Below, piece by piece: positions 23,993-62,877 of a stretch of DNA of 64,000 bases. The DNA comes from Arctopsyche grandis (taxonomy: Eukaryota > Arthropoda > Insecta > Trichoptera > Hydropsychidae). The stretch spans positions 16,181,501 through 16,245,500 of the forward strand of contig NC_135359.1 of the NCBI RefSeq assembly GCF_051622035.1, written 5' to 3'. Made by a program: the position numbers and the translations under genes. Within the stretch, counting starts at the first letter, position 1. The number at the start of each line of letters is the position of its first letter. The notes beneath the pieces are model-generated. The model had not been told where the DNA came from, made no database searches, and saw only the letters and a list, made by a program, of their open reading frames with translations.

Positions 23993-26713
23993 CAGTGGCG
24001 GACGGTGGGTGTTAATACCGGGTGTGCTGTGTATGCCGTAGGGCGTAGGGTATAAAATTAGCAATTAAAAAAAAATACTCGTTTTGCATTACAAAAATGT
24101 TTAATTTATTAGTTATTTATACATAAGTTCAATGCGACGTTTCTGAGACATAAACTTTTCAATCACGTCTGCATAGAATGTGTCTTTCTGTTTTAATTCC
24201 ACCAATAACTTTTTTTCTATTGAAATTAAGCTAAGGCCACATAATCTATCTTGACCTTGCGTACCTCTATAGCAAGTTTTTATTCTTTTCAGCGCCGAAA
24301 AAGACCGTTCTGCTGAAGCTGTACTGCTTGGTATCGTTAATATTAATTCTCCCAGCTTAAACACCTCTTTAAAACCAGATTCGAGGTTATTTTTTGTCAT
24401 GAATTGTATTAATTCATGAACAGGTTTCTCTGAAAATTCAGAGCTGGAATATAGCACAATGAGTTCGTTTTTCAATCGAATATAATCAAACAGTGATCCA
24501 TAAAAATCTTTTAATTTATTAATTAAAACATTTGGAAAATTTTCTTTATATTCGTCATATTTATCATTACAAAGAAGGTGGAAATATTCTAATTTGGAAA
24601 GTGAAGAATATCTACATTCGACTTGTGCGATTATGCTATCAACTATTTTGAAATATAATTGACGAAATGAAGTTTTATCTTCTACTTCTGAATAATTTTT
24701 TAATCTTTGTGGCCACGATCATGATCATCATTTTTTTCATTTAAATAATTATTCCATAACATTTCAAAATTATTATACCTTTCGTATTTCAGTTGCTGCA
24801 AAACATCATTAATTTTTTTACAACAATATAAAACGTCCGAAGATTTAGATTGAAGAATGTTATACAAAACATCAGTTATTCCAAACAGTTTTGAAAAAAA
24901 TTGAAGAAGTTTAATTGTTTGAAAATCCTCTAAAAAGCCTAAAAACCCTCGTGCTTTTATAACAGTATCTGTGTCCCATAATTCACAATTTTCTATAACA
25001 TGTCGAAAAAAAATATGTAAATTGACTTCTGTATTGTTGTACTGTGCTACTTAAACGAGATGTAAAATTCCACCTTGTGGGTGCTACAGAGGGAAGTCTT
25101 TTTGTCACAAATTCCTGTAAAGCGAATACTCTTTTGGAAGATTTTGAAAAGTATGTAGACAATCCATTTAAAGTTTGAAAAAATGATTTACTTTCTTTAA
25201 TATCAGAAAGACCTTGCTGCAATACTAAATTCAATACATGAGCATAACAGTGTGTAAAAAGAGCAAAAGGATAAGCATTGAGGACTTTGGATTGCAAACC
25301 ATTTACGTGTCCACTCATTACACTTGCTCCATCATAAGTCTGTCCAACCAATTTGTCTTGAATTTTAAATTCTTCAACTATGTTCACCATTAGAATAGAC
25401 CATTAGATGTTTTATCAGCACTAACGTCTGTAAAACTAATAAACCGTTCATGTACATTGCCTTTACATACAAAACGTAAAACTGTTGAGAGCTGTGATTT
25501 TGTCATTATATCTGAAGTTTCATCGAGAATAATAGCAACAAAACTTGCTGACTCTACTTCATTTTTTATATGAACTTTAATAACATGAGAGATTGCTTCG
25601 ATTATGTCATTTTGTATACTTGGAGAAGTACCACGAAAGGTAGTAGCAGTATTTAGAGTATCTAAAACAGAATCATATTCTCGAAGAGCATTTAGATATT
25701 CAATGTAATTGCCTTTGTTTACGGAATTACATGACTCGTCGTGACCTCGCAGGGACAGTTCTTGTTTTCCTAGATAGATTATTGCGTTAATAATTCGTTT
25801 TAAAACATCTCTATTTTTATTTACTTGTTCATTATGTCGACTTATTTCGGCTTTACGTTGACTGTCAATTAATACGTCGATTCGTTGTTTGCCAAACATT
25901 TGTATGGAAAGAAATGATTGAACGTGTGCCTGCGATCCTTTGTGTTTCTTCAGTGCTGCTGTCAAATGGTTGAGATCAGCAAATCCTTCTTTGTTCCACA
26001 CATTAATATCTTTGGAGAACAATAAACATGGCCAGCAGAAAAGTTTGGATCGAATTTCACAGCCTGTAATCCATACGAATTTTTTATAATTTGAAACGCA
26101 AAAATGTCTAGTGTAAACTTTTGTTTTTTCTTTATGCAAACTGGATAAATTTGGAAGAGACGGACACGGTTTCCCATCTTTAATTATTTTTAATTTTATC
26201 TCAAAACTTCTATTTGAAAACGGAATAGTTAAAATGTCTTGAACACTGTTAGCCATTATTAGTTATTAGAGGTAATAATATGACCATAAAAATACGAATG
26301 TGCGAAAAAGTACGAGACCACGTGCCGCATCGCATTCGGTCAATTGCCGAGTGGTGCGGTGCGGTGCGGTGCGATGCGGTGCGCGGTGCTCTGAAGTCGT
26401 AGCACACCGTACGTCTTAATATCGCGAACAAACCTATACAAGCGAATATCCGCCTGCACACTCCAACCAAACCCACCAATTTGCTGCACGGCATAGGTAT
26501 TCTCTCGTCGCGGCGCACAAACTACATACACACATCACACAACACGCTGCAGACTGCACACCACACCATACACCATACATTTAGCGCACGCGGTAAATAC
26601 ACCATACACATCAATGCCTGCTTATACAACAACACATTATTTTGTATTAAAATACTACTTGGTTTTCACGGGTGTGCGCCGCACACCTAGCACACACCCA
26701 ATATACGCCACTG
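23993..26713 (-). mobile_element. complete hAT transposon with exact 8-bp target duplication
   Basis: The element is 2721 bases long. Its ends are CAGTGGCGGACGGTGGGTGT and, reverse complemented, CAGTGGCGTATATTGGGTGT. Inside, GGTGTGC is shared at both ends. The flanks 23985-23992 and 26714-26721 are identical (ATGTATAT), the 8-bp target duplication typical of hAT. A five-base GGTGC array lies in the 5' subterminal part (about 26346-26390). The transposase at 24113-26256 is frameshifted, so the copy is not autonomous. Confidence 0.93.
24113..26256 (-). pseudogene. hAT transposase (TTF zinc finger, DUF4371, hAT dimerisation), frameshifted
   Basis: The reading starts at ATG 26256 (MANSVQDILTIPF). 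A TTF-type zinc-finger region (CWPCLLFSK with preceding Cys) lies around residues 70-85. Next comes the DUF4371 / ZMYM1-like region, with AIILDETSDIMTKSQL and, after a frame change, GQTYDGASVMSGHVNGLQSK and APTRWNFTSR. The C-terminus has the hAT dimerisation motif SSTASAERSFSALKRIK. The frame breaks near 25390, again at a T-run near 25005, and once more near 24715 beside a GATCATGATCATCA repeat. In a live element this protein cuts and pastes the transposon in the nucleus. At least three frame disruptions make it a relic, but the rest is well preserved, suggesting a fairly young insertion. Confidence 0.9.
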
Positions 26714-29656: not shown

Positions 29657-30092
29657 CTAATGATCGTGACCCACCAATCAAATGACCCAGCGGATGTCAA
29701 TAGATCCTATGAAATTGTCATCGCTTGTATGTACTTTTTTTTCCATTTTGTAATAAAACTAGTAATTTATTTGTAATTTTAGTGGCATTGCTAAGAAAGA
29801 GAAAATCAAGGCTTCAAGTGATTAAACTTGGCCCGTTCTTGTACTCGTTTGGAATATAAATATTTACAAAAAAAATACTCCATGAGCCTTGTACATACAT
29901 ATGTAGGTATATCATGTTCATATTTTAGTCAGAAAAATAATTTTCATATATCCACGTACTACGTTTTTAAAATTATCGCAGATGCACCGTTATAACAATA
30001 ATAAACATTCATGAACATATATGAATAGAATGCACATCCTCGTCGATTTGGCACGTATTAAATAATTGATGCTAAATACCAGCATGTATATA
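29657..30092. other. AT-rich non-coding stretch
   Basis: No upstream exon for the 29441-29656 frame could be identified here, and no other feature is visible. Confidence 0.25.
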
Positions 30093-31284
30093 TGTTACAC
30101 CGAATCCGTGAAATTGTCTATTACACGCATTCGGCAAGAGAATTGCCGAATGCGTGAAAAATGCAAGCACGTTGCCCAGTTCACGGATTCGGCAAATTCT
30201 TTGGCGAATGCGTGTATTCGGCATGAATTTGTCTGCTCAAAGCGTGGAGTCGGCAAATAGACAGCAGCGCTCCGGTGTTGTTTTTTAGAACTGGACAGCG
30301 TGGACAAGTGTCAAAGTGACAGCTGAATGAGGATGTTTAATTTACATATTATTATGTATAATATGACTACAAAAATATGTTTCGATCATCTCATATAACT
30401 TACACTGTAACAACTCCTGTGAAATGCGCCAAATTTAAATTTGAGCAAATTCTATCTGTGACGGTGGGAAAAGTTGAAAAAATTGTTAAAATTTTTAATG
30501 TTAATTTATATCATATAAAAATTATGTACTATGTATGAACACACAGTTAGTTCCACTGTATGTTTGTGTAAAAGAAACGTTACATAGTGACTTATTGTTT
30601 AAATTTAGGGTACATTTTTAGCCCATTCTCAAAGACTTAAAAGAGTGTTTTTCTGTAATAGTTCCTTGTCGAAACAATTTTTGTATTTTAGTTCGAACCA
30701 ATGAGTGAGAGGTGACTACGAGATTGTTAAAATACAAAATGTTCCAAAGCCGAAGTCATGCAGGGCTGTTTTGATCCTCAAGACAAATGCATCTCCGAAC
30801 TCCGGAGAAACGTATGCAGTTAGATACAGCGTTTCACACCGGGTGATTTCTTAGCCGCTCACATTTTCATATGTACAATTGGTCTGGTCGGTGTAGGCTA
30901 GAGCTATGTTCTGGGACATGTGTAATAAAATTAAATATTTATAATATAATACTGATTCTTCACAAGGTATAAAATTCCAACTGTTAAAATATTGATCAAA
31001 ATGTATAAAAATAGCATTAATTTATGTATAAGTTATATGAGATGATCGAAACATATTTTTGTAGTCATATAATACATAATAATATGTAAATTAAACTAAA
31101 TTAAACATCCTTATTCAGCTGTCACTTTGACACTTGGTTATAATATAACACGCTGTCCAGGTCACGCATTCGGCAAAGAATTTGCCGAATCCGTAAACTG
31201 GGCAACGTGCTTGCATTTTTCACGCATTCGGCAATTCTCTTGCCGAATGCGTGTAATAGACAATTTCACGGATTAGGTGTAACA
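30093..31284. mobile_element. 1.2-kb foldback element with arms of about 250-310 bases
   Basis: The left arm (30093-30402) and right arm (31029-31284) are inverted copies from TGTTACACCGAATCCGTG inwards to GATCATCTCATATAACTTA. The arms contain repeated short palindromes built on CGCATTCGGCAA/TTGCCGAATGCG. The left arm has an extra segment of about 75 bases (30216-30291). TATA on each side may be a short target duplication. The middle has no coding capacity. The TGTTACA ends are shared with the MITEs at 41814 and 50310. Confidence 0.8.
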
Positions 31285-32890
31285 TATACATTATAAAAAA
31301 TGGGAATGGACAAAGAAAATTTGGTTAGATTGATTTTGAAATAATCATTTATATTTGACGAACCTTAAATTAGTATGGAAAACTTATTATTTACTTATTA
31401 AAACTTATTTATTTATTTACTTATTAAAATTTATTACTTATTACTTATTAGTATCAGAATCTTAAAATAAATACAAAAAATTCAAACGCTTATTTATGTA
31501 TAGATTTTCACCTGGATAAATGGATTTTCTAGACTTGGATTTTTGTATTGAGGTCTAATGGTCCGTTTATATTATTAACATATCGGCACAACACTGCACG
31601 GAAAATACTATTTAGATATATTCATGCTATACAGCAGCGCCTGTTTTTGGTATGTTCACACATGTTTTGGACGAGTGCACGGCAAAATCGGCTTACATAT
31701 ACATATATACATACATTACAGAGTGCAAAAATACGGCGTAATATTGCTTGCGTCGTATTTTCGAATGAATATTGTCTCAATATGACGTTTCCGAAACACT
31801 TTCGAAAAATTTCAAAGAAAGTGCCCGGAGAAAACAGATTCTGATTGATACGTTTCGGTGTCATGTACTGTTGTATAGTATGAATAGATTGTATCGGTTG
31901 CTGTTGTTTTGAATACGCCAAATATACAAACTCAGGTACATTAGATGCTACAGTTTGTTCTCTTCTCCTGGGGTACGTACTAATTTGATGTTTTCATCGC
32001 CTTTTGCTCGGGGCATCAAGCTCCTCAACCAGATTTGTTTAATCGAAAATATGCTAATCTGGTTGGTAAATTGTTTAATTTGAGATCGTAAATGTGTTTC
32101 ACATTTAATTGATCACATTTAATTAAAACAAATCCCATTTAATTGATCATTATATTTTTGATTTCATTATATTTTTTTTATTTTTCTATTATGTTTGTTC
32201 TTTACTTTAAATTATCTTCATGCTTTATTATATAATATATCTTATTATATTTTGATATTCAATTTTTACTTTTATATCTTTTGTTATTTTTTTATGTATA
32301 TATGCCGAGCTATAATGACGCCCTAGAGCATATTTGTAGTGTCAATATTGCTTTAATATAATAAATAAATAAATCAATTACGGAAAATATGAAAGTGTCT
32401 ATATAGAATGTAATAAATAATATTTTTTATACTGCTGTTTACGTGCAGTTGCCGGCTTGAACAGTGCTGGTATAAACAAACCTTAAAAGCATAGAATTAA
32501 TTATACGTAAGAATACATTTTGTCAAACTGAATATGTCCATTAACGATTTTTGAATCATGTCAACGAAAACGCCTACTCATCACGTTTTATTTATCCGTA
32601 CGAGCGATACGTTGCGATGTATAGTTTCACAAAAAACTGACATGGTCAGGTTTGAGTGAAATGGTATTATGTCATTGATGAATATCGATCATTCAACAAA
32701 ATTTCGATTGAAAAAGTTTTTGCACAGCGTGGTCAGTTAGCGTTCGACAATAATGGGACAATATGACAATAATCGACGGTGTGAATATAGCGATTTTATC
32801 TCACGGTATACGGGCGTCAGTTCGATTATTTTTTTTATGGTTGGGTGATGATACTTCATGGATTACCGTAAACAAAGGTATGGAAACACT
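31285..32890. other. non-coding stretch upstream of the secreted-protein gene
   Basis: The stretch is AT-rich with short TTAT/ATTT runs (31380-31450). No exon was identified. Opposed frames at 31548-31921 show no domain. Confidence 0.25.
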
Positions 32891-38788: not shown

Positions 38789-39195
38789 GGGTCTACGTGA
38801 CGAGACAGAATGTTAAATTACAGAAAACACAAATATCGGAAGGCAAAGATCGAAAATCGAAAGATCTTAAGTCAAAGATAAAAAAAAAATGGTGCATGGT
38901 AAACGGTACATACTCACTTAATTTGCGCGAGCAGGATACAACGGGAACAAGAGGAACATTCTTTTCCTCCCGTATTCTGCGCGCGCACATTAATACGGGA
39001 GGAAAAGCCTGTTCCTCTTGTTCCTATTGTATCCTGCTCGCGCAAATTAAGTGAGTATGTACCGTTTACCATGCACCATTTTTTTTTGATCTTTCGACTT
39101 AAGATCTTTCGACTTAAGATCTTTCGATTTTAGATCTTTGCCTTCCGATATTTGCGTTTTCTGTAATTTAACATTCTGTCTCGTCACGGAGACCG
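38789..39195. mobile_element. 407-base palindromic MITE with 9-bp target duplication
   Basis: Two arms of about 190 bases are near-perfect inverted copies around a short centre near 38978-38992 (CTGCGCGCGCACATT). The ends are GGGTCTACGTGACG and, reverse complemented, CGGTCTCCGTGACG. Exact 9-bp direct repeats CAATGATAT flank it (38780-38788, 39196-39204). One arm's body matches the short member at 55309. The right arm has an extra CGACTTAAGATCTTT unit. A 9-bp duplication suggests the Mutator or Merlin superfamily. Confidence 0.88.
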
Positions 39196-46542: not shown

Positions 46543-46999
46543 TAGCCAGCAGCATAGCTCGGTCGTTAAGCTTCTGCTTGGCGTTGAGAGGCGGCGGGTT
46601 CGATCCCTGGGTCCGGGCCTCGAATGAAAATGAATTTTTCACAGTATGCTGTTGGTTAGACCTGGATTTGTGACTTCAGGTTGATATTTTCCTATCGGAG
46701 TTTGCCAATTTTCTTTGATTTCATTGTTGAAACGGTTCCCAGAAAAAAATTGGCTAAAAATCTTTCTTATACGATATGTCACCTATAATTTGTTATTAAT
46801 TAATGTACAATAAATAAGTTTGTGTACAAATTAATAGATGTCTCATTGATTTACGAGTTTTACAGTGTCTCGTAATTCAGTGATTTATTTAAATATGCTG
46901 AATTGTAATTGACCGGGAAGGCGCATTGGGGTTTACCTGTAAGGCCTTCCTGGTATATATGTATGTAAAAAAAAAAAAATAATAATAAAAAATAAAAAT
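46543..46999 (+). mobile_element. tRNA-derived SINE, copy 3
   Basis: The head is TAGCCAGCAGCATAGCTCGG with A box TAGCTCGGTCG (46555-46565) and B box GGTTCGATCCC (46597-46607). The body has CCTATCGGAGTTTGCCAATT and GAAACGGTTCCCAG. It ends in an A-rich tail (about 46968-46998), which marks retroposition. The B box is the best preserved of the five copies. Confidence 0.8.
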
Positions 47000-49900
47000 T
47001 TCATTTCAATTTTATTCATGATTTTAAAACTACATAAAGCCTGTTGTATTATATGTATGTATAATGCATTCAAATACCCGTGGGTAAAATACGCAGTGTT
47101 CAGTTAATCACGCCTGAAATTGAAGTTTAGTGAAACTATTCGCAATTCCCTCGATAATTGGCTTATATTTTATATGTAGTAAAAAATAATTACATTTGCC
47201 TTAACGACTCATTTAAATATTCTGGAAAATATAATTATTATATATTTTTAATTTTAAATAGTTATATTTTAATTTGAAATTTAAAAATTCAATTAAAACC
47301 CCCTTTATATAGGGTTGTTTATTACGAGTCAAACCGGGACAATCTCTCTCCCTCTTAACAATATTAAACCACTGAATTTTTAGTTTGTATTATATTATAA
47401 AATTTATAAATTTTAATATTAATTCTTTATGAATAACAGAAAGGAAAGTTAAAGCAAAAAATTAAGTCCTAAATATTTTATATGACAAAATTATATAAAA
47501 AATATTGAAATAATCTTTTATAAATTTTAAACATTATACATAATTAAAGCCATTATAATTTTAGTTAAAAAACAATATTAGCAAAACTCACCAACGTTCA
47601 TATAATTAAATAAAACTACTGCAGAGAGATTGTATATGTAATTATGCATGAACTGTCTTGTTTGTTTAATAATAACGAAACCATTTAAAAGAAAAATGTT
47701 TCTTTTGACAAAATATCACAACTGTTTATACTGTGAGTTGCAAAGGGGCGGTAGAATGCTGCATATGGATAGCTAGCTGCCATTGCTCCGAGCCGACATT
47801 AAATTTTAATGATTTCCAAAAGGGTGGTATAAATAGGCGTATGGATAGCTTGCTGTCATCGTTTCAATCTGATACAAGATTTTGATTTGAATTTCAATAA
47901 GTCCGTTAATGATTAAACTCCTCTAGCTTCATGTCGGACACATTTGCTTACTTCAATGTTAGCTAGCCTCCGTATATCGGTAAGATATCAAAGCGACCTG
48001 GAGAGTGCAAATGATTCAAAATCAGATCAAAATTTTTTGACGGGCAGTGAAGCTAATAAAAAGTTTGTAAGAGTGTCTTACAAATAGCGCCTATTTCGTG
48101 ATTGTATTACATATTTAGATGGAGCTTTGTGAGTGAGAAAACATTATCGATTCACTATAAATCGATTGATTCCTGATACATACATACTTTTTCCGTGTCC
48201 GTTTTAGGCACAGTTTTCCAAAATATGTAAGAGAGAGGCAAAAAGTGCATCGTTGAATATATTTACATATGTATGTATGTACATATATACGTAGCCGCAG
48301 CGCGTAGTGTATACTATGTAGATATCCACATTTTATTTATAAATTATCAGTTCATGCTAACGCATTTTTGCATTCTGAATTAAATGTAGGTAGGTATCTA
48401 AAAAGTGGTAAACATGGATTTTTGAGTGTACCGAATGGTTTGTTCGAGACATCGGGACAAAATACTCGAAAATGGTGACAAATATTGAATAATCGGGACG
48501 TATTGTATAGTATTGTTGTTACCAAAATGCCTATTCAAAAAAATACCTATCAGAGATTTATAATTTTTAGCCAATTTTTTTAAAATGAAAAACTTCATTT
48601 GAAATACATACACATGACTATGGATTGGGATTGTCAATCGAATATTCGAATACTCACCCGATTTTCGCCTATGCGAATATTCGAATAATCCATCAAAAAT
48701 TCGAAAATATTCATTTACTAGTATTGTACCCGATGACATAACATCGCATGGGTGTTGGCGTATTAAGTTATTAAATAAAAGAAAATTAAAAGAAATGTGT
48801 CGTCGGTCGTGTATTTGATGCCCTCGCGGTCGAATCACTTTTTTGCACTAATTGTTTAAATAAATCAATACTGGTGAAACTTTATATGTATATTTCATTA
48901 ATTTTTATTCCATATTCGAATATTCGAAAACTCCGAATAATTGAGAAACCTACTATGATGTACTTATGCACATATGTATGCAGATACTCGTACATCTGTA
49001 GCTTTCAATTGAGAGTTTCTTACAAAAGCAGTAAGTAAATAATAACCTTTCGCATTTAACCGTACAAAAAATTTACGTTGATAGATTATTCAATAGTCTC
49101 GCGAGTTTCAACTTTTTTTCGACGGAGTTGCCTTTCAACGACTTGTGGCAAAAGAGGCGAGGAAAAAGGAAACGAAAAACCAACGAAAAGGTCGCGGAAT
49201 AAATATAATAAAAATGAATAAAGACGAGCGGTCAAACAGAAGGGGCACCCTTTCGGTTGGCAAAAATGTTGGAATAAATAACTCAATCCTCGACGGGAAT
49301 ACGGACTGACAAAAAGCTGCTGCTGCGAGCTTTTTGTCTTTTCGCCGGTCTGAGGTCGATTGCTGGAGCTTTTTGCTCGGCGGAGGCTTTTCGAGCTTCT
49401 TTGTTTGTTCTTCTTGTTATTCCGCCGCTACCTTTTCTTCGGACTTTTGATAGATCGTCGGCCTTTTTGCGCGTCTGTAATGGCCGACGTGTAAATCAAA
49501 ATTTACAAATCGCAACTCTCACTTGCCAACTTTAAAATGGACTACAACTTATAAATCATCACAACTAAATGGATTAATTTTGAAGAAGAAAATCTTTCGA
49601 AGCGTTAATTCTTGTACATAAATTTTAATATTTGACCTTAAAATTTGACTTGGTAAATAGTACATGTTATATAAACAACATTTATCATGGTATAATGCTA
49701 TAGACTTGCAATATATTGCAAACATTTTTTCCTTCAAACATTTTCTTTAATAATACACTTTATGAATATGTATGTGTACTTTAAATTTCCATAATAATCA
49801 CACAAAATTTTACTCTCAATTTTTCAGCTTTGAAGATGGTTTCATAATTTCTCTCGATTTAAAGCAAACTGGAACATTCCACGTTCATACTTATTCAACG

Positions 49901-52640: not shown

Positions 52641-53533
52641 CTAGTGAATAGCCCGATGAAACATCATCGCATGGGTATAAAATTATTATATACTCTTATA
52701 AAACTAAAAAAAAAAATCCGGAACCGGAACCGTTATTTTCGTAGTCTCTCATAGATAGTTTTCAATTCTTTATTTGTAATAATTTTCGATTCTTAAAAAT
52801 ACGCAGACTCCCATGGAGAGTTTTCAATTATTTATTTAAAGACTTCCTATTTTTTTCTATTATTATTAGCTATCGCCCCGAGCGATACTGCAAATCGAAA
52901 TCGATTCACTCGATCCATGACACCCGACTTCTCCCGACAACTACCGAAGATATGACTCCGTTTTGATTGGTTGTCCATACGTTCTGTACGATTATTGAAT
53001 ATTAACGTTATTTAGAGCAGCCTTTATATCCGTATCATGGTGTACTGGTCAGTGTATATTGATCTGGGCGCGATGGGGGTAGGTTCGAGTCGGCGTCCTG
53101 GAATTGATTTTATTTTTTCAAATATCGCTAAAATATAAATTAATTTCAATTTCAATTTCAATAATTTCAATTAAAAATATATATTTAATTGTTTTATATG
53201 AAAAGAAAAAAAAATGGTTCAAAACTTCGATAAATGAAATTATTAAAATTACGTATTTTTATATGGCGAGAAGGAATATTTCAATTAATGTTTAAAAAAA
53301 AAAGGCGAAATGAAAAATTGGATTTGGCACGATGTCAGAGACCATTAGCTCATTTAGACCCATATTCAGGCTATTTGGGGTGATCGGTTCGAGTCGCGAC
53401 AAAGTCGTCTCGTCGAAAAATGAATTAATCGATTTTAATCGATTCGTTCATTATGTTCGGCGAGAGTTAGGACACACACACACACCCACACACACACGCA
53501 CACACACACAGATTACCGTCTTTATATATATGA
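52641..53533 (-). mobile_element. non-autonomous Helitron H1 with tRNA-like module, copy 1
   Basis: On the minus strand it runs A|TCATATATATAAAGACGG to a CGATGATGTTTCATCG hairpin, then GGCTATTCA and CTAG|T; it is 893 bases. A (TG/CA)n tract follows the 5' end. Near the middle, on the opposite (plus) strand, is a tRNA-like unit with A-box-like TGGTGTACTGG (53038-53048) and B-box-like GGTTCGAGTCG (53082-53092). Copy 2 at 61693 has the same ends but a different tRNA-like head. No Rep/helicase gene is present. Confidence 0.82.
53472..53511. repeat. (CA)n microsatellite in Helitron H1
   Basis: A 40-base CA tract with two interruptions. The matching (TG)n is at 61713-61750 in copy 2. Confidence 0.85.
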
Positions 53534-55308: not shown

Positions 55309-55530
55309 CGGTCTCCCTCACGGGCCCGAAAGTGAAACGCCCGAAAACGCAAATATCGGAAGGCAAAGATCGAAAATCGAAAGATCTTAAGTCGAAAGAT
55401 AAAAAAAGGGTGCATGGTAAACGGTACATACTCACTTAATTTGCGCGAGCAGGATACAACAAGAACAAGAGGAACAGGCTTTTCCTCCCGTATTCTGCGC
55501 GCGCACATTTCGGGCCCGTGAGGTAGACCC
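55309..55530. mobile_element. 222-base MITE, single-arm member of the 38.8-kb family
   Basis: The ends are CGGTCTCCCTCACGGGCCCG and (reverse complement) GGGTCTACCTCACGGGCCCG, about 22 bp of inverted repeat. CATTAGTAC (55300-55308) and CATTGGTAC (55531-55539) form a 9-bp duplication with one mismatch. The body (AATATCGGAAGGCAAAGATC, GGTAAACGGTACATACTCAC) equals one arm of the palindrome at 38789. Confidence 0.87.
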
Positions 55531-59885: not shown

Positions 59886-60056
59886 TAGCCAGAAGGATAG
59901 CTCCGTGGTTGCGTAACTTACCTCGATTGGAATGAATTTATTCGGAGTATTTCTGATGTGCTGCTGGCCAGACTTTCATTTCCTATCAGAGTTTTGTCAA
60001 GTTATCTGATTTCATTATTGAAATGATTTCTCATAAAATTGGCAAAAACAATTCTA
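59886..60056 (+). mobile_element. tRNA-derived SINE, copy 5 (partial)
   Basis: The TTAGCCAGAAGGATAGCTCC head, then GTGCTGCTGGCCAGACTTTC and CCTATCAGAGTTTTGTCAAG. The B box is no longer recognisable. It lies head-to-head with copy 4, 62 bases away. Confidence 0.65.
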
Positions 60057-60701
60057 CTCAGGGTTCGAAATGGACAGGAATGCATGGGAGCGCCGGGAAT
60101 TCATAAAACGTAAAATTTTCTTATATTCCACACTCTTTCGTAAATTTTGAAAAAAAAAATAGAATTCAATAATTATTATAATTCAATAATTATTATAATT
60201 GTTAACCATTTAGGGTATTATTGTATTTTTAACGAGTAAGGTTTACGATTTCAGGAGTTTATGATTCCATGTACATACATATTTATGTCGGCTTATTCAC
60301 ATTAATACAAGGATTATTCTCATGAACGGCGAAGGTATTTAAGGGGTCTAAAAAATAGTGCAAGAAAAATCGGACAAGATTTAGATTTACAAAATTATTA
60401 TATTATAATATATTTTATATATTATGTTTATTATGTTAGTTTATGATTAAATTATTATAGTTTTAAATATTATGATATTGAAATAATACTACATTTAATA
60501 AATTATAAAATATACGAAATAATAAAATCATTTTATCATTATTTAATTTTTGAGAATTCTCGAAAAATCTTATGATTTTTTGAGAAACGAGAAATGAAAA
60601 AAGCCAAAAAAATTTTGAGAAATTCTCGAGCGGAAACACTAATTGTTACTACGTACATACATATGTATGTAGATAACTTAAAAATTGATAACCATCATTA
60701 C
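60057..60701. other. AT-rich non-coding stretch
   Basis: No gene. It contains a short direct repeat ATTCAATAATTATTATAATT at about 60164-60200. Confidence 0.3.
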
Positions 60702-61692: not shown

Positions 61693-62474
61693 TCATATAT
61701 ATAAAGACGGTAATCTGTGTGTGTGTGGGTGTGTGTGTGTGTGTGTGTGTCCTAACTCTCGCCGAACATAATGAACGAATCGATAAAAATCGATTAATTC
61801 ATATTTCGACGAGACGACTTTGTCGCGACTCGAACCGATCACCCCAAATAGCCTGAATATGGGTCTAAATTGAGCTAATGGTCTCGGACATTACGCCAAA
61901 TCCAATTTTTCATTTCGCCTTTTTTTTTAAATATTAATTGAAATATTCCTTCTCGCCATATAAAAATACGTAATTTTAATAATTTCATTTAGCGAGGTTT
62001 TGAACCATTTTTTTATGTATTTATTTTCAATTAAATTATAATTATAATTTAAATTATTTATATTTTGACGATATTCGAGAAAAAAATTGATTTCATTCAC
62101 CGCGGGCGCCGGGAATCGAACCTCGGACCCTCCGATCCAAACGCATTGGCGCTAACGAGCTCGCGTCGCATGCCATATCCTCGCCCAGAATACGTGTTGT
62201 AAATACACATCATATGTATATGCACGTAATTTGTTATGTGTCATAATAATATTCAACGTTACGAGGTCAATGACCGTTTGTGTATAATCGGAAAATATTA
62301 CATTTTGTTAACATTAACTTTAAGAATTGAAAATTATTACAAATAAAGAATTGAAAACTATCTATGAGAGTCTACGAAAATAACGGTTCCGGTTCCGGAT
62401 TTTTTTTTTAGTTTTATACGGGTATATAATAATTTAATACCCATGCGATGATATTTCATCGGGCTATTCACTAG
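61693..62474 (+). mobile_element. non-autonomous Helitron H1 with tRNA-like module, copy 2
   Basis: It starts A|TCATATATATAAAGACGG and ends with the CGATGA-TATT-TCATCG hairpin, then GGCTATTCA and CTAG|T; it is 782 bases. The 5' 330 bases and 3' 170 bases match copy 1 in inverted orientation. A tRNA-like unit lies antisense (minus strand): B box GGTTCGATTCC at 62112-62122, followed by CGGCGCCCGC, with GCGAGCTCGTTAGCGCC as the A-box region. Confidence 0.84.
61713..61750. repeat. (TG)n microsatellite in Helitron H1
   Basis: Thirty-eight bases of TG with a GGG interruption, the counterpart of 53472-53511. Confidence 0.85.
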
Positions 62475-62877
62475 TATATATATAATATCGCTATTCTGTC
62501 TGTGTGTCTGTTTGTCTGAGATAACACTCGCTGTAATAGTCGTTTTGATTCGACATACACTCATATACATATACGTCACAGCTAAACCACTGCTAAAACG
62601 TATATACGAATACAATAACTAAATTAAATTGACTGTCACGAACAAACAAACATATATGTATACTGTCTCTTTCGAAATTATATGTATACCAGAATCCGGC
62701 ACCTGCGCCCCTGGAGGCTTTGCCCCTTAGGGCTTCGCCCCCGGCAGCTGTAACTCCGGCACCCCCGGGGAAAAAATCGAATCGGCGCCTATGAATCGAA
62801 AAAAAAAATCGATGACGCACGGATTTACGAACCAACAATACACACATACAAAGTCTCTTTCAAAATTATATATTAGA
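62475..62877. repeat. fragments of Helitron-like repeats
   Basis: TATTCTGTCTGTGTGTCTGT (from 62493) resembles Helitron 5' regions of this window. Two copies of GTCTCTTTC(G/A)AAATTATAT (62668, 62853) match the H3 5' end; the second ends TATTAGA|T at 62877, a full minus-strand H3 start. Between them is a GC-rich piece (GGGCTTCGCCCCCGGCAGC). Confidence 0.5.

Follow-up and report, generated by a model that had tools for sequence, protein, structure and literature searches.

Introduction

Helitrons, the rolling-circle elements among DNA transposons, are known for capturing gene fragments. Here we analyse two non-autonomous Helitrons, which we call A and B, in a stretch of 64,000 nucleotides (nt) from the trichopteran Arctopsyche grandis (assembly GCF_051622035.1, contig NC_135359.1, positions 16,181,501 to 16,245,500 of the forward strand), and refer to this whole stretch as the window. 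Both elements hold, antisense to themselves, units that resemble transfer RNA (tRNA) and the promoters of RNA polymerase III (Pol III), and the head of one of these units differs between the two. We find it reasonably probable that an old unit, derived from a tRNA or from a short interspersed element (SINE), has been kept by this Helitron family and that its head has probably been replaced more than once.

The insect Helitrons Hel1 and Lep1, as the main texts of PMC6544945 and PMC4038834 describe them, resemble A and B in having TC and CTRR (or CTRY) ends and in combining common ends with differing internal or 3′ segments; Lep1 also shares the insertion between A and T. Exemplars of Hel1 are set apart by the internal regions they captured, which PMC6544945 attributes to filler DNA used when breaks are repaired. 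Neither main text mentions tRNA, whereas the segment that varies in A and B is a tRNA-like unit whose slot and orientation are fixed. The DINE-1/HINE Helentrons are likewise abundant non-autonomous rolling-circle elements with a microsatellite; unlike A and B, DINE-1 prefers TT targets and has subterminal inverted repeats (excerpts of PMC2374699 and PMC4067079), and an excerpt of PMC2374699 states that it is without Pol III promoter sequences and tRNA-related structures. In Arabidopsis, a cluster of tRNA-Cys overlaps annotated Helitrons, and the excerpted part of PMC10701932 names capture as a possibility that would be the first for a non-coding RNA. As here, tRNA sequence is tied to a Helitron annotation; the family of A and B differs from that cluster, as excerpted, in its clear ends and many copies.

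The tRNA-derived SINEs have a type-2 Pol III promoter with A and B boxes spaced 30-40 bp (excerpt of PMC7279448). The boxes in A and B also lie about 30 nt apart, and the SINEs of the window also vary in head with alike bodies. Unlike tRNA-derived SINEs, however, A and B show Helitron ends, no retroposon ends or target duplications, and a T-rich trailer directly after the unit. Among the matches listed in open-access full text, which covers neither subscription papers nor preprints, we found no described animal case.

If true, Helitrons would carry cargo of a different kind, perhaps a working part: a non-coding Pol III-like unit that is kept and whose heads can be replaced. Such a unit would link two classes of mobile DNA that are usually treated apart, tRNA-derived SINEs and rolling-circle elements. 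The different heads in one slot would form a natural series for testing in what way Helitrons exchange their internal parts and whether the persistence of a DNA transposon is aided by Pol III factors.

Two Helitron subfamilies with alike ends and unlike middles

Element A is 893 nt long (52641..53533, minus strand) and runs from a TC 5′ end at 53533 to a hairpin and CTAG 3′ end at 52641; element B is 782 nt long (61693..62474, plus strand) and runs from TC at 61693 to CTAG at 62471-62474. Each is preceded by A and followed by T. An earlier interpretation of the letters alone (the sequence-only reading) had placed two complete copies here, and both its coordinates and these termini proved right. 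The conserved 5′ end TCATATATATAAAGACGGTAATCTG, with the same letters in A (53509..53533, minus) and B (61693..61717, plus), has two occurrences in the window and none in shuffles by motif search. It is adjoined by a CA/TG microsatellite in A (53472..53510, minus) and a TG/CA microsatellite in B (61716..61750, plus), both read by eye.

At the other end, the hairpin (CGATGA/TCATCG) and CTAG terminus occupy 52641..52668 (minus) in A and 62447..62474 (plus) in B. The palindrome CGATGA-4 nt-TCATCG measures 16 nt and lies 13 nt before the end, CTAG included, in agreement with the canonical Helitron palindrome of 16-20 nt at about 11 nt from the 3′ end. The 5′ TC and 3′ CTRR termini and the insertion between A and T, free of target duplication, are also canonical, as excerpted from PMC4067079. 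Parsed copies lie between A and T and not at the TT of Helentrons and HINEs, and the inverted repeats listed near the ends of A and B are short AT-rich pairs only.

We searched a 475.7-Mb assembly (G000), in which the window lies on contig C5. With A as query, 40 of 1843 first-look candidates were scored, namely A and 39 others that each match at least 816 of 893 nt at 94-99% identity; with B, 40 of 1854 were scored, B and 39 others with at least 735 of 782 nt at 95-98% identity. Over the 30 best loci each, mean column divergence is 0.7% (A) and 1.2% (B), values biased low by the choice of best matches. Sixty loci were fetched, both window copies included, of which 56 could be parsed and 4 could not. 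TC, CTAG, flanking A and flanking T occur all together in 51 of the 56 parsed copies, and separately in 54, 54, 54 and 53, respectively; since the copies came from near-full-length matching to A or B, with end motifs located allowing 3 substitutions, TC and CTAG are partly selected for by the search, whereas the flanking A and T are not. A 4-nt flanking duplication was present in 2 of the 56. A and B are thus members of two amplified non-autonomous Helitron subfamilies. Pattern scans gave 0 matches in viral contigs, and in genome contigs they hit two bacterial records (L001 and L002), which we took as chance.

Some copies have Helitron neighbours. Two such elements, n46 (in locus L046) and n26 (in L026), neighbour A/B-type copies and are joined to them directly at CTAG. 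Head-to-tail neighbours were seen at L011/L032 (C3:20020434-20023264), L026 and L046, and repeated 5′ ends at L016 and L055. Directly past the 3′ end of B, positions 62475-62507 resemble a related Helitron 5′ end (81% to 61695-61726), so that B seems inserted into the 5′ end of another Helitron-like element. A third related Helitron 3′ end (hairpin and CTAG; 48718..48757, minus), probably a remnant, has a 28-nt match at 89% and is not within 3 mismatches of the 3′ motif of A and B.

The two elements share their ends, the CA/TG tract and the flanking body, as had been claimed: A and B are 92% identical over the first 380 nt of A and 95.5% over the last 157 nt. Between these parts, a block of 356 nt in A (52798..53153, minus; the lineage-1 middle, partly common to n46 and L064-type elements) does not align with a block of 254 nt in B (62065..62318, plus; the lineage-2 middle, whose segment adjoining the head is common to n26), and the two middles have no mutual blastn match at E ≤ 1e-3 apart from short fragments. 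The sequence-only reading had seen different heads in the same position; the middles indeed fail to align, but the differing part is the block of 254-356 nt and not the head alone.

Promoter-like boxes and likeness to tRNAs

The inner tRNA-like unit of A lies at 53038..53092 on the plus strand (A-box 53038-53048, B-box 53082-53092), and that of B at 62112..62165 on the minus strand (B-box 62112-62122, with a degenerate A-box near 62144-62165). In both, the B-box-like motif is on the strand opposite to the Helitron, which bears out the claim that the heads are antisense. A second, outer tRNA-like unit, common to A (53346..53396, plus; B-box 53386-53396) and B (61826..61878, minus; B-box 61826-61836), had been missed. 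Directly after the inner unit comes a T-rich trailer in A (53108..53121, plus) and a T run in B (62080..62086, minus), either of which might serve as a Pol III terminator. The trailer is found after several head types; T runs are expected in such AT-rich DNA.

The best pair of A- and B-boxes in A (1 mismatch) is reached by 1 of 2000 element-wise Markov shuffles. For B (2 mismatches) the same score is reached by 70 of 2000, and its boxes are therefore weak taken alone. Across the family the enrichment is clear, with box pairs of at most 2 mismatches in 32 of 64 heads compared to 3 of 2560 shuffles; in 28 of the 32 passing heads the start-to-start spacing is 41-44 nt. Many of the 64 heads belong to the same subfamilies, with 25 clusters at 12% distance, and they cannot be counted as 64 independent cases. 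Both boxes of A are unchanged throughout its set of 31 rows (the query and its own locus, with 29 further best-scoring copies), and in the set of B the B-box is intact in 29 of 31 rows and the stretch scored as A-box varies. Among 20 lineage-1 heads, pairwise identity is 77-81% in the A-box and 84% in the B-box core, compared to 61% in the leader, 67% between the boxes and 65% after them on the 3′ side. The A and B boxes of a type-2 Pol III promoter, as in SINEs of tRNA type, are present here as sequence boxes only.

The heads were compared with the tRNAs of the genome, as the sequence-only reading had proposed. A first set comprised 21 tRNA genes, namely 20 fetched of 62 listed and the one in the window. 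Against these, 11 of 13 Helitron segments (11 inner and 2 outer, several of one subfamily) reached p ≤ 0.05, among them the outer unit of A (p = 0.01); the head of B resembles Lys, Ala and Cys tRNAs above shuffles, and both window SINE heads also reached p ≤ 0.05. Against 41 tRNAs, a set from which many isotypes are missing, the heads passed p ≤ 0.05 in 12 of 24 cases and the control segments in 2 of 24, and the head of A, taken with a longer segment, gave p = 0.02. This comparison used the 24 of 31 heads that had anchors (n46, L086, L124, L128, L130, L132 and L126 were dropped). The two passing controls are segments of L066 and L073 about 150-230 nt from the linker that adjoins the unit; 0 of 100 shuffles reach them, and they are perhaps further tRNA-like sequence, or chance.

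Boxes and tRNA similarity together support the claim that a rolling-circle element carries units that are Pol III promoter-like and tRNA-related. The term tRNA-like, as used in the sequence-only reading, thus holds for promoter boxes and primary sequence; it does not hold for a cloverleaf. What the heads resemble is promoters and the heads of tRNA-derived SINEs, and not intact tRNAs. ARAGORN at its 90% threshold found nothing in A or B; below 90% it gave many matches on both strands, which were not used. Intact tRNA genes are ruled out, no tRNA covariance-model match having been obtained in the units tested, and a conserved RNA fold is ruled out by the alignment of 20 heads. In L125 the outer unit retains a T-arm-like CACGG..CCGTG, read by eye.

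The window contains a tRNA-related SINE family (AGCCAGCAG..TGGTTAGA..TTTGTGACT), with copies or fragments at 46544-46740 (plus), 8162-7999 (minus), 59774-59673 (minus), 9562-9459 (minus) and 59979-60059 (plus). In the two copies compared, at 46544 and 8162, the heads differ more than the bodies. The head and trailer of B score 25 against the SINE at 46544 (shuffle mean 11.3, sd 2.1), and 4 of the 12 comparisons in that test reached p ≤ 0.05. The lineage-1 A-box pattern occurs at 44 places, and of these we fetched the 20 not seen before: all 20 fall within this Helitron; the linker is present in 18, and 2 are rearranged. At this strict A-box pattern the lineage-1 head is therefore not a common SINE. 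These similarities point to a tRNA or SINE ancestry of the heads.

Heads in one slot and the mosaic structure of the elements

Elements n46 and n26 have a 5′ part like that of A and B and a different 3′ end (CACCCGTTGAAAT..CAACGGGC..CTAG), which carries a CAACGGG hairpin. Each holds a further tRNA-like head, placed and oriented as the inner units of A and B are. A pattern for the linker just beyond the unit has 344 exact places in the genome, and one for the lineage-2 (n26/B) upstream flank has 461; the reversed-pattern control gave 0 for each. From the first 100 listed of the 344 we fetched 60, of which 14 were chosen first for a T variant and from which recognised A copies were skipped; from the first 100 listed of the 461 we fetched 20, of which 11 were chosen for a pattern unlike that of B. 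This sampling is non-random, and frequencies in the genome cannot be read from the fetched sets.

Among the 60 linker places, the upstream motif is that of lineage 1 in 48 and that of lineage 2 in 5; 7 have neither. Lineage-1 copies share one colinear module, in which a leader (like TTTAGAGCATTTTTTCTATCGAGACCG) is followed by an A-box (like TAGTSTARTGGTTAGCG), a B-box and GGAATTAATTTTATTTTTCAAATATCG; both A and n46 have diverged forms of this module as heads. In the 20 lineage-2 places the upstream flank is common, by choice, and so is the trailer except in the rearranged L123, L125 and L127; between these they hold several different heads, 10 of them of the type of B. One lineage-2 element, L063 (C1:2516372-2516842), has no head between leader and trailer and shows a short direct repeat, GAACGTTT, at the junction. 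In L159 (C7:5870806-5871074) a chimeric head has arisen by a deletion that joins the inner A-box to the outer B-box, which illustrates directly how new heads can come about.

The degree of likeness between heads depends on the group. Within lineage 1 (A, n46, L072, L075 and L083), all ten head pairs align far above shuffles (z 3.1-11.5). Among the heads of B, n26, L066, L128 and L129, 7 of 10 pairs are no better than shuffles (p > 0.05), including n26-L066 (p = 0.87), L128-L129 (p = 0.73), B-L128 (p = 0.62) and n26-B (p = 0.27), with flanks that are 78-96% identical. This flank identity is partly forced, in L128 and L129 by the exact upstream pattern and in L066 and L076 by the exact downstream pattern; that of n26 and B is forced by neither. 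In this comparison 71 of 84 sequences were anchored and 11 of 16 representatives compared (L124, L130, L132, L126 and L080 were dropped). In another alignment, the rows of L132 and L076 look misanchored and were disregarded.

The 3′ ends were exchanged separately from the middles. Identity between A and B is 96% in the 5′ part, 83% in the linker and 96% in the 3′ part; between A and n46 it is 93%, 100% and 55%. The A/B-type 3′ end is found both with lineage-1 middles (A, L064, L070, L092, L094, L109 and L122) and with lineage-2 middles (B, L131, L134, L136, L137 and L139-L142), as is the CAACGGG-type end (lineage 1: n46, L072 and L110; lineage 2: n26, L063, L074, L076, L126, L129, L132 and L133). 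Other fetched stretches fall short of the 3′ end or show neither end type. A and B are mosaics of old lineages, and they differ mainly because they combine two old middle lineages with alike ends.

Possible origin of the units

Under the reading that we prefer, the subfamilies of A and B presumably move by rolling-circle replication with RepHel supplied in trans. Long ago, the family would have gained a tandem pair of units derived from tRNAs or SINEs, both antisense to the element, with the inner unit in a fixed slot between a common leader and a common T-rich trailer. In lineage 1 this unit would have drifted, with the A- and B-boxes drifting less than most of the remainder. In other lineages (B, n26/L074, L128 and L066/L129) the head would probably have been replaced by other tRNA-like sequence through template switching or gene conversion that involved other elements as well as SINE or tRNA sequence. 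Exchange of the same kind may have swapped 3′ ends, and for this reason A and B would now have matching ends around old, different middles. Repeated capture or swapping of Pol III promoters had been proposed from the sequence; in its favour, relatives with like flanks often hold unalignable heads in one slot, but a recent capture in each copy does not fit, as A, n46 and several other heads diverged from one colinear module.

A number of results weigh against head replacement and tRNA descent. No unit tested matched the Rfam tRNA model (RF00005) at E ≤ 10 or E ≤ 1, in a test that included A, B and 20 further copies (E ≤ 10), with L123-L142 outside the tested set; the transfer-messenger RNA model of the same clan, for which only the best clan match is shown, matched only the 11-nt B-box of B (7.1 and 3.6 bits). 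A control stretch of the window holding SINEs likewise gave no tRNA-model match, and the model therefore does not separate the cases. The alignment of 20 heads shows no cloverleaf, with 10 weak pairs predicted, 2 of them with a double change. Against the 21 tRNAs, the head of A gave p = 0.32 and that of L129 p = 0.5, and isotype assignment was dropped because the best isotypes differ among B-type heads. B and n26 pass the box scan only with the odd spacings 32 and 36, and 4 of 64 heads (L063, L066, L071 and L103) have no box pair at all. A TTCTG between the boxes is also nearly invariant in lineage-1 heads, which indicates that constraint is not confined to the boxes. Head windows were defined by fixed distances to the linker, and their edges match the head borders only approximately; three of the ten pairs outside lineage 1 (n26-L128, B-L129 and L129-L066) reach p ≤ 0.05, as do 10 of 30 pairs between lineage 1 and six other heads (L076 included, which accounts for 5). 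This excess of aligning pairs over chance suggests shared boxes or partly shared descent, and we put the number of independent replacements no more precisely than at probably more than one. Neither a donor locus nor a RepHel partner was found, though no completed search stands behind the second of these negatives.

We consider it unlikely, though deserving of weight, that a single ancestral acquisition accounts for all inner heads, which would then descend from one fast-diverging unit, with recombination joining two old lineages to common ends. The lineage-1 heads clearly are one diverged module (10 of 10 pairs), several groups have a similar leader and a similar distance from it to the A-box, and the ten cross-group pairs that align would find their explanation here. 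Nevertheless, several head pairs are at chance between flanks of 78-96% identity, and neutral drift should not erase a head while sparing both its sides.

There is a very slim chance that one SINE inserted into the Helitron and then decayed, the case named beforehand as the one that would refute repeated exchange. The window does hold SINEs with tRNA-related heads, one of which the head and trailer of B resemble, and at a distance the unit is flanked by loose pairs of A/T-rich repeats (17-34 nt, 71-82% alike). Yet there are no exact direct repeats at the edges of the inner unit in A or B, on which ground we reject a single insertion with target duplications; moreover, heads differ between flanks of like age, and what would be the SINE body contains a second tRNA-like unit. 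That chance produced the boxes, in a part of an AT-rich element that is richer in GC, is scarcely credible: the absence of an Rfam tRNA match and the 70 of 2000 shuffles that equal the pair of B would suit it, but the box pairs in 32 of 64 heads against 3 of 2560 shuffles lead us to reject it, and the mostly constant spacing of 41-44 nt, box columns more conserved than most neighbours and the similarity to real tRNAs also contradict it. We give negligible probability to the elements being SINE-like retroposons that only resemble Helitrons, a reading to which the Pol III-like boxes and tRNA-like units might lead; we reject it because of the TC/CTAG ends with their hairpin, the insertion between A and T and the absence of target duplication in nearly all parsed copies, and the head-to-tail neighbours speak against it as well. 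Neither the flanks of the parsed copies, with a 4-nt duplication in 2 of 56, nor the unit edges, which have no exact repeat, show the target site duplications of tRNA-type SINEs.

If the unit retained in the Helitron family were active, its transcript would be about 100 nt long and would end at the T-rich trailer. Such a unit could dock TFIIIC and keep copies accessible, which we offer tentatively as a possible role. We are more doubtful of a stronger version, in which the unit would be a dedicated, position-fixed Pol III cassette with selection on its boxes and repeated refilling of its slot with different tRNA or SINE heads, recruiting TFIIIC and Pol III to each new copy.

Other features of the window

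By its content the window resembles nuclear DNA of an animal. Open reading frames (ORFs) of the window match an HMG-box and DUF4371, and one gives a weak, below-cut-off match to apolipophorin; the tRNA gene of the window is a tRNA-Arg. The DUF4371 match belongs to the longer (25390-26256) of two adjoining ORFs at 24983-26256 (minus), and DUF4371 proteins are often hAT-like transposases. A 126-bp inverted repeat at 30089-30214 and 31163-31288, 98% complementary and 948 nt apart, looks like the terminal inverted repeats of a DNA transposon. Finally, positions 38874-39094 form a near-perfect palindrome (103-nt arms, 95%, 15 nt apart), of which a further copy lies at 55401-55509.
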